Source of the DNA: Tubulanus polymorphus
Taxonomy: Eukaryota > Nemertea > Palaeonemertea > Tubulaniformes > Tubulanidae
Length of the DNA: 64,000 nt
Direction of reading: 5' to 3'
Assembly: GCF_964204645.1 (NCBI RefSeq)
Contig: NC_134028.1
Span: forward strand, 1,984,001 to 2,048,000
The position numbers and the translations under genes are program-made. This document shows, piece by piece, positions 37,082-40,000 of this stretch; the first letter of the stretch is position 1, and every line of letters begins with the position of its first letter. The notes under the pieces are model-generated. The model searched no databases. It saw only the letters and a list, made by a program, of their open reading frames with translations, and was not told where the DNA came from.

Positions 37082-40000
37082 TTAGGACATCAAATTTTTG
37101 TAATGCGCGTTTATAGCTCGGCCGATGACTAACTTACGAACTTCCGTCGTACCAGCTCCGATTTCATAAAGTTTCGCATCTCTCAGTAAGCGGCCAGTAG
37201 GGTAATCATTAATATAACCGTTACCACCTAAGAAAAAAATATTCAACTTATAATAACAGCCATAGATTTACGTATCGCTTCTGACTAATCTCACTTCTTA
37301 ACGTACCTAAGATCTGAATAGCGTCTAAAGCCATTTTAGTCGCAGCTTCAGCAGTGTATAGAATAACTCCAGCACAATCCATAGGCTGTCGTTCTCCGCG
37401 ATCTAGAGCTCTAGCTACGTTATACGTGTACGAGCGACATACGTTTAACATCGTATACATATCTGCCATTTTTGCTTGAATCATCTGAAAAATAACAGGG
37501 TCAAAACAAATCAGTCATTCCTGGATATAAGGAGTTTTATTTAAAGATTGAGTGAGTGAGTGAGTGACTGTGCGTGTGTGTATGAGTGCATGTGTGTGTA
37601 TCTTCTCCTTTTTTGTTCTCCGAGGGTGCCTACACTCACAAGCTTAGCTTTATCTATGGCTCCCCTGCTGTTATTTTACCTCAATGTATATAAACAAGAT
37701 CGTAATGTCTATATCATCATAATTATAATTGTATTCCTTATATATTGATGTAAATTATCCAGGAAATAAAATGATATGATAATTTCAAATTTCGAGGAAG
37801 TGTCTGCATCACTTTCATATCCCAATTACAGTAGACTCCTCCTCCTAAATCGGATCTGTTATCTTGGAAAACTGTTAATACAGTGGTTTTATAAGCAAAT
37901 TTCTATCCTTGACACTACTCAACTCGGTTTCTAATTCGGTAACTCGCTCATCGTAACAAAAATATCCCGGTTCCAACTATACTGATACAGCCTCTTCTAC
38001 GTAGACATGATGCATGAGGCATCCTCGTGTAAGAGCAGACAATGAATGACCGTAAAGACTTTCTTACACACCTGAAATTCACCAATTTTCTGGTCAAATG
38101 CTTTGCGAATATGAGCGTACTCAAAAGCCACATCACAACATGCTTGCATTATCCTGAAAATAAAGAATTAACGCAAAATTCAAAGAAACAGTGCATAGTC
38201 AAAAGCCCAAAAAGGTAGCTATAAAGAGAGAGATGAATTGTAGTGCATATTGAAATCATACCCGACAGGTCCAGCTGCTAATACAAGTCTCTCAATGTCT
38301 AAACCACTCATCAGCACATAAACTCCTTTACCGAGATTGCCTAACACGTTCTCAGCTGAAAACAAATGAAATATCGCCAATTATTGAAAACTGTTCTGAA
38401 TACCGGAACATCTTGACTAAACCGAGATCAGGTGGATGTTGAGAGACCTTATTAGCAGCCACAGGGTGATTTGGGTGGATATATTGCGTTTGATATATAG
38501 TTTAGCGGTATATGCTGGAACCAGTTGCCCAGACAAGACTGAGGTTCAAATAAATGCTGTCTGAACAGATGAGCCTTAAATCTAAGCCTTGACTCGGTAA
38601 CAACTGGATCCTGGGGTCGCTTCCATAATCTGACAGTAAATCTCACCCAATCGGCCCAGCAGCTCCAAGAGCTCTTTCCACATCCAAACCGCTCATCAAA
38701 ACATAAACCCCTCGGTTTTTTCCACCAAGAATATTCGCGGCTAAAACAAAATTAATTTCGTGCATTTTTTTTTTAAATGGCCATTCATAGAATTTGATCG
38801 ATGAGTGATTTGGATCATAGAATGAATTGCTGAACAGAGCTGCTTAATACGATCATAGTGAGAATCATGGAATCTGTGGAAAAGACAAACAAGTAATCTG
38901 ATCAATTGTAAGATGTCGAGGAAAATTTTAAGGAATATCCTTCATAATCTAAGAGCATGTGCATCTATCTCACCCGAGACTAAGTGCAGCAACTATAACC
39001 CTTTCAACATCCAAACCACTCATCAAAACGTAAACACCTTTGTTCAAATCACCGACAATATTTTCAGCTAAAATACATTTTGAATATTTCGATCACCCGT
39101 GTTGTCCATAACTCCAACATTGGACCAAACAGAATTAGAAAGTGATGTAACAAGACCAAGCATGCCTTAAACAAACCAGTCGTTTTAATTGTTGTAAATT
39201 CTTAAATTTTACCTGGAACTTTGCAATCTTCAAATACAAGTTCACCGGTATTCGAGCCTCTCATTCCCAACTTGCTTAATTTCTGAGCGCAGCTGAATCC
39301 TTCCATTCCCTAGAAACATTATCAATACGAGTTCATAAGTGAAACTGCAAATACGAACACATTGTGACAATGCTTTCAATGTCAGTAAGACAAACCTTTT
39401 CTATAAGGAATGTAGTGATCCCGTGCTGTGGTTTCACATTGAAGTCCGTTTTTGCGTAAACTACTAAAACATCTGCATCTGGTCCATTCGTTATCCAAAA
39501 CTTGCTACCGTTTAATACATAATAATCTCCTGAAAAACCGGATATCCAAGTCCAGACTATGTAGGTCAGTAAATGGGTGGTTTGACTGTTTACCCAAAAA
39601 ACCAATAAAAATCAATAGAATCGATTAAAAGTCAAATATAATTTTTAGCTGATACCTTTCTTTTCTGCTTTCAGTTTCATAGAAACAACATCAGAACCGG
39701 AGTTTGGTTCGCTCATCGCGAGAGCCCCGATATAATCACCGCTTATCAGCTGAAATACAGTTAAATCACACAAATCTAATCTTCGAAATAGATCTAACTC
39801 TCTTTCTCCCTTCTGAAAACTACATTTCATGGAATTTACCACAAGCTACAACATACCTTCGGTAGATATTTATCTTTTTGTTTATCGTTACCATTTTTCG
39901 CGATTTGATTTACGCAAAGATTCGAATGCGCTCCGTAACTCAGGGCAACGCTAGAACACGCTCTCGACATCTCTTCCATTACTAAACAATGATCTAGATA

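Follow-up and report, generated by a model that had tools for sequence, protein, structure and literature searches.

A probable mutually exclusive three-exon cluster at the acyl-pocket floor of isovaleryl-CoA dehydrogenase in the ribbon worm Tubulanus polymorphus

We have analyzed a 64,000-nucleotide stretch of the Tubulanus polymorphus genome (the window) and found that its gene for isovaleryl-CoA dehydrogenase (IVD) carries three tandem versions of exon 8. We consider that exon 8 is probably a functional mutually exclusive three-exon cluster that swaps the floor of the acyl pocket of IVD, with parallels in molluscs. This explanation is carried by the anatomy of the array, by its frame logic, by the constraint on the copies, by the recurrence of the exchange in other species and by the position of the exchanged residue in the pocket. 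From these observations we infer splicing of one copy in three, nonsense-mediated decay of other products and a changed substrate range, and we predict tissue or oxygen control of the exon choice. In the proposed mechanism, the spliceosome would join exon 7 to one of 8a, 8b and 8c, and then that copy to exon 9. Products having zero or more than one copy would be shifted in frame and would be expected to undergo nonsense-mediated decay. The choice of exon would thereby set the residue at the pocket floor, and this swap, together with changes in its neighbours at 288-295, would be expected to give a deeper or reshaped pocket and, with it, a different set of oxidized acyl-CoAs.

The IVD gene and its exon 8 array

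T. polymorphus is a palaeonemertean of the phylum Nemertea, within Lophotrochozoa. The window contains a complete IVD coding gene, which spans 40622-37082 of the minus strand in the spliced model and shows AG and GT at all internal exon borders. Its exons are as follows.

40467-40622, minus strand: exon 1 with the start codon (spliced model; identical to the NCBI protein P0001)
40286-40375, minus strand: exon 2 (spliced model)
40115-40166, minus strand: exon 3 (spliced model)
39857-40026, minus strand: exon 4 (spliced model)
39656-39749, minus strand: exon 5 (spliced model)
39396-39529, minus strand: exon 6 (spliced model)
39213-39309, minus strand: exon 7, the upstream partner common to the array (spliced model)
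38974-39067, minus strand: exon 8a, with Val at the human L290 position, Leu at that of G293 and Ser at that of P294
38647-38740, minus strand: exon 8b, with Gly where human IVD has L290, the residue also present in six molluscan isoform X2 entries
38262-38355, minus strand: exon 8c, with the canonical Leu; NCBI isoform X1 contains this version
38072-38153, minus strand: exon 9, the downstream partner common to the array (spliced model)
37307-37484, minus strand: exon 10 (spliced model)
37082-37227, minus strand: exon 11, coding part and stop (spliced model)

When spliced with any single copy of exon 8, the gene encodes 430 residues without an internal stop. The c version is 100% identical over its full length to the NCBI entry 'isovaleryl-CoA dehydrogenase, mitochondrial-like isoform X1 [Tubulanus polymorphus]' (P0001), and we rejected a vertebrate source for the window accordingly. 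The protein has the N, middle and C domains of acyl-CoA dehydrogenases, and its nearest solved structures are those of IVD. Judged from its sequence, the product is an isovaleryl-CoA dehydrogenase, for which the oxidation of isovaleryl-CoA itself is predicted.

An earlier note on this DNA had described three 94-nt exons with a catalytic glutamate in each, of which zero or two would break the frame, and our analysis confirmed this description. Each copy takes in one codon base and passes on two, is preceded by AG and followed by GT, and contains no stop. Each encodes residues 265-296, which include the catalytic glutamate and, behind it, turns of the same helix. All five other combinations that we tried run into a stop, at residue 266 with no copy, 334 with a and b, 297 with b and c, 297 with a and c, and 332 with all three. 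The array has three of the features by which mutually exclusive clusters are recognized: its exons are adjacent homologues that agree in length and phase (any two share 21 of 32 residues), every copy is spliceable in terms of its AG and GT borders and open frame, and the frame break is a safeguard against zero or multiple inclusion, with nonsense-mediated decay as the predicted outcome. The introns between the copies are 233 nt (a-b) and 291 nt (b-c) long.

When each exon 8 peptide was compared with the whole window by tblastn, the other two copies were found with E values of 1.3e-9 to 4.4e-11 and the next best match with at least 1.7. These values led us to reject chance open frames as the source of the copies. 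In the 267,791,593-base assembly, strong IVD matches lie at one place only, and other places resembling acyl-CoA dehydrogenases show 33-46% identity. A search with a joint exon 8-9 peptide (copy a), which gave scores for the best candidates only, found exon 9 and all three copies; its one further match, on another contig, was weak (E 0.03). An origin of the copies from a second IVD gene is not supported, given the single strong IVD locus in 267.8 Mb.

The surroundings of the gene were viewed in a domain scan that covered 20 of the 74 long frames in the window. Upstream of IVD and on the same strand, exons of a dynein heavy chain (microtubule stalk, AAA_6 to AAA_9, lid and C-terminal domains) occupy 44048-62211 of the minus strand. 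Also upstream, on the opposite strand, an open frame at 42630-42941 (plus) matches a GNAT acetyltransferase. An imperfect tandem repeat with a 7/14/21-base unit lies at 41897-41987, some 1.3 kb before the start codon of IVD. Elsewhere, we found a Major Facilitator Superfamily domain in a long open frame at 9022-10065 (plus), a match to dynactin subunit 5 in the frame 577-996 (minus) and a sub-threshold TIR_3 match in the frame 1349-2101 (plus).

Constraint on the copies and the pocket-floor residue

The three copies are conserved at the protein level, and their silent sites are nearly saturated. Silent differences per silent site are 0.65-0.78 between exon 8 pairs; dS is 1.55 for a-b and beyond correction for a-c and b-c, and the pairwise dN is 0.25-0.34. 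Of the 32 residues, 11 differ in each pair, and a 10-residue core and the Glu-Arg pair are identical across 8a, 8b and 8c. At such silent wear, stops or lost splice sites would be expected in an unconstrained copy, and none of the three has any; on this comparison, all three copies are under protein constraint. The catalytic glutamate (human E286) is present in the three copies and in all 316 homologous proteins that we fetched, which come from three lists of best matches and were not sampled at random. The version that departs most is copy a. It has Leu at the position of human G293, where the fetched proteins have Gly in 313 of 316, Ala in three and Leu in none, and Ser at the position of human P294, where they have Pro in 308 and Ser in one. 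These two changes could be tuning or damage. In the same segment, a divergent IVD-like protein of 421 residues (P0194) reads VERIVIATASLG, which is close to copy a.

As the earlier note had claimed, the residues behind the glutamate differ. At the position equivalent to human L290, c, the ordinary IVD version, has Leu, b has Gly and a has Val, and further changes lie among its neighbours at 288-295. According to the available text of a 2025 cryo-EM study, L127 and L290 of human IVD form a barrier at the pocket floor that limits the chain length, and MCAD has Val at the second of these positions (PMC12369846). This source is not fully consistent in the text available, in that one sentence states that the Leu residues give a wider space and the conclusion that they narrow the pocket. 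In the available part of another study, LCAD I295 is among the residues that touch a modelled bulky substrate (PMC10925408); by numbering, I295 is the fourth residue after the catalytic glutamate, as is human L290. On the one hand, Tubulanus P0001 and the four molluscan isoforms that we examined have kept the other named pocket residues, L127, A131, L135, Y403, G406 and A407, so that the first residue of the pocket-floor pair is kept. On the other hand, the second is Leu in c only. A reported specificity determinant is thus altered in two of the three predicted Tubulanus isoforms.

We also compared AlphaFold models of the Leu and Gly forms of oyster IVD, with one model for each form and without FAD, ligand or tetramer. 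The helix 277-305 is unbroken in the Leu form, and in the Gly form it is broken at 285, adjoining the changed residue. The pLDDT over residues 281-290 is 95 and 94, respectively. Regarding the acyl-chain specificity that the earlier note had called tuned, the exchange of Leu, Gly and Val at the bottleneck described in the available text of PMC12369846 provides a structural basis, and a change in substrates would be its expected consequence.

Molluscan isoforms and the origin of the variant exons

The earlier note had compared Tubulanus with vertebrates, in whose IVD it knew of no such triplication. This was the wrong comparison; the relatives that matter here are the molluscs. Our homologue list comprises the best 120 of 8000 scored matches, which by their entry names are 41 named molluscs, 48 other named and 31 unnamed entries. 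Among these 120, the L290 position is Leu in 111 and another residue in nine, and all nine are molluscan predicted isoforms labelled X2 or X3. Six have Gly (Mytilus galloprovincialis, M. edulis, Crassostrea virginica, Mya arenaria, Ruditapes philippinarum and Dreissena polymorpha), two have Ala (Haliotis rufescens and H. asinina) and one has Val (Ostrea edulis). The molluscan X1 models in the same list have Leu in nine of nine. The split between X1 and X2/X3 gives a Fisher p of 4e-5, which overstates the case because the nine species are not independent. Isoform-labelled entries from outside the molluscs, two of which are insect X2 models, have Leu in six of six in this list.

The molluscan exchange falls within the stretch that corresponds to the Tubulanus array. 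X1 and X2 of C. virginica (the eastern oyster) differ only at residues 259-289, and those of Mya (the softshell clam) only at 261-291, in both cases within the stretch that aligns with exon 8; these are the two species with clean X1/X2 pairs listed, and the pairs were compared as predicted proteins and not by exon borders. For M. edulis, both the Leu and the non-Leu type are listed, but the two entries differ elsewhere too. In the gene model of Plakobranchus ocellatus, a Gly-type copy precedes a Leu-type copy, as though the two exons had been run together in gene prediction.

Of the 316 fetched proteins, 302 have Leu at the L290 position, and the exceptions besides the nine molluscan entries are two plants (Met and Phe) and three unnamed entries (Ile, Ile and Gly). 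A search with the 8b region alone returned 93 proteins, mostly Leu forms, and a search with a chimeric region gave Leu in all of its best 120 of 8000 scored, with no further variant. The 31 unnamed entries in the homologue list, whose longest contigs are 1.3-5.1 kb, all have Leu, which suggests that the variants are less abundant or were missed in assembly. In terms of the search for the same array in relatives that the earlier note had proposed, on the one hand, predicted molluscan isoforms with the matching exchange were found in nine species. On the other hand, the nemertean Lineus, like the brachiopod Lingula, shows the Leu form only among the matches listed, and no annelid-named entry is among the best 120 of 8000.

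These parallels could reflect common descent or separate origins. We built trees of exon 8 from 36 chosen rows and 32 residue columns, which are too few columns for a firm placement. The tree from all 32 columns places 8b with the molluscan Gly and Ala types (support 92/85, not starred, with the bootstrap unsettled), and a and c fall elsewhere; the best tree in which the three Tubulanus copies stand together is 10.6 log units worse, yet the AU test does not reject it (p 0.23). Once the pocket columns 288-291 are dropped, 8b is no longer in the molluscan Gly group. Descent from an exon that predates the split between molluscs and nemerteans and repeated evolution of one and the same change may each account for 8b and the molluscan Gly exons, as descent and convergence are inseparable in these data. 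That the molluscan and nemertean arrays arose independently, with the Gly at the pocket floor as convergence, has in our judgement slightly less than an even chance, and would be compatible with our preferred explanation. The departure of 8b once the pocket columns are removed and the Leu forms of Lineus and Lingula argue for it, and so does mrp-1, which the available text of PMC7434440 cites as a case in which exclusive exons of equal length arose independently in helminths, annelids and molluscs; the grouping with all columns and the poorer score of the joined Tubulanus copies argue against it. The same dilemma between ancestral and repeated origin is described for the coq-2 exons in the available part of that source (PMC7434440).

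Exon choice and comparable exon-swap systems

The mutually exclusive architecture proposed in the earlier note is well supported by the frame logic, by the constraint on the copies and by the molluscan pairs that differ only in the matching stretch, and use of one copy in three would follow from these. Among the matches listed, the Tubulanus IVD protein is the c version only, in a cluster of two members from a database collapsed at 90% identity. By the usual naming convention, its label 'isoform X1' presumably means that NCBI modelled at least one further Tubulanus IVD isoform. In the 18 nt before the acceptor, a has 10 pyrimidines, b 11 and c 13, compared with 11-14 for exons 2-7 and 9-11; these counts are a weak hint consistent with c as the default.

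The mechanism of exclusion was considered from the introns. The earlier note had suggested complementary docking sequences, and no convincing case appeared in six intron pairs under two tests. One of the six pairs, the introns 7-a (39068-39212) and c-9 (38154-38261), showed complementarity with a z of -2.9, reached by one of 100 shuffles. As 29 of 200 shuffles were as good in the alignment test, we did not count this pairing as evidence. Steric interference may play a part but is likewise not supported, since branch-point-like motifs occur at both intron ends: besides those near the 3' ends, the a-b intron has them at positions 65 and 72 and the b-c intron at 10 and 77. Likeness between the a-b and b-c introns, as a trace of recent duplication, did not exceed that of shuffled sequences, as 51 of 200 shuffles reached the score. 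Separately, the introns b-c (38356-38646) and c-9, on the same strand, are alike beyond 196 of 200 shuffled pairs, perhaps as a trace of duplication of the c unit.

The single c-version protein among the matches listed would also fit a switch in dosage, in which only c gives a working IVD and a or b lowers the output, either as an isoform that poisons the tetramer or through double inclusion and nonsense-mediated decay. The slightly lower pyrimidine counts of a and b and the departure of copy a at two near-invariant positions point the same way. We nevertheless consider such a switch unlikely: all copies have kept the catalytic glutamate, the next arginine and the 10-residue core despite nearly saturated silent sites, a frame-preserving length of 94 nt would not be required of a poison exon, and nine molluscan species show changes to small residues at the same pocket position. 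That a and b are decaying duplicates without a role is highly improbable, because their absence from the Tubulanus proteins listed and the odd residues of copy a are outweighed by intact frames and splice sites at a dS of at least 1.5, by a dN far below dS and by the parallel annotated isoforms in nine molluscan species and Plakobranchus.

Among the results listed for the open-licence PMC literature, we found no earlier report of an IVD exon duplication. The Tubulanus IVD gene is a new gene for a known kind of system, that of exclusive exons, with three copies and a change at an already named specificity residue. ACOX1 belongs, as IVD does, to the acyl-CoA dehydrogenase/oxidase superfamily, and likewise has isoforms of equal size made via an alternative exon. 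As given in the available text, recombinant human ACOX1a and ACOX1b, which differ in exon 3, peak on C10- and C16-CoA, respectively (PMC11178532). ACOX1 exon 3 is a listed human tandem duplicated exon, whose swapped 55-residue region holds FAD-binding residues according to the part of the source available (PMC9741552). The shift in chain length was measured for ACOX1 and is inferred for IVD; moreover, ACOX1 has two exons instead of three, is peroxisomal and swaps the FAD-binding region and not the helix of the catalytic glutamate.

Two further systems are close to that of IVD. The exclusive exons 6a and 6e of COQ-2a and COQ-2e change two active-site residues, and in the available text they are reported from nematodes, platyhelminths, annelids and molluscs (PMC7434440; PMC8659336) and not from mammalian hosts (PMC7434440). 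They resemble the IVD exons in altering an active site and in that their origin may be ancestral or repeated, but they number two, serve quinone synthesis and have a function shown by exon deletion in C. elegans. In the oyster, CvAOXA and CvAOXB arise from a duplicated exon 10 and switch under air exposure, as far as the available text describes (PMC5589949). This is again a tandem duplicated exon in a lophotrochozoan mitochondrial oxidoreductase, with one copy conserved and the other changed near functional sites; unlike in IVD, it is the last exon, subject to 3' alternative splicing, with two copies and in a different enzyme. In humans, 377 of 629 mutually exclusive clusters have exon lengths not divisible by three, so that joint inclusion breaks the frame (PMC5740500, available text), which is the same safeguard as in exon 8. 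The word 'isovaleryl' is absent from the main text of PMC5740500 and of PMC9741552.

We also consider a broader, speculative reading, which we hold to be quite unlikely as a whole. In lophotrochozoan facultative anaerobes, the choice of exon 8 might turn IVD into acyl-CoA dehydrogenases with a deeper (b) or reshaped (a) pocket, possibly for other branched or longer acyl-CoAs or as reverse enoyl-CoA reductases in hypoxia, in a splicing programme shared with the exon switches of coq-2 (rhodoquinone) and AOX, and the Gly type would come from the ancestor of nemerteans and molluscs. If this broader reading were true, one gene would yield three acyl-CoA dehydrogenases by splicing.

If our preferred explanation is true, a core enzyme of amino-acid catabolism has its substrate pocket set by splicing, and one precise kind of change at a named bottleneck, in which Leu is replaced by Gly, Ala or Val, appears in molluscs and a ribbon worm. 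The isoforms would provide a natural series of pocket variants, open to direct assay, of the enzyme that is defective in human isovaleric acidemia. IVD would then join COQ-2 and oyster AOX as a mitochondrial enzyme through which metabolism may be retuned in these phyla by the swap of one exon.
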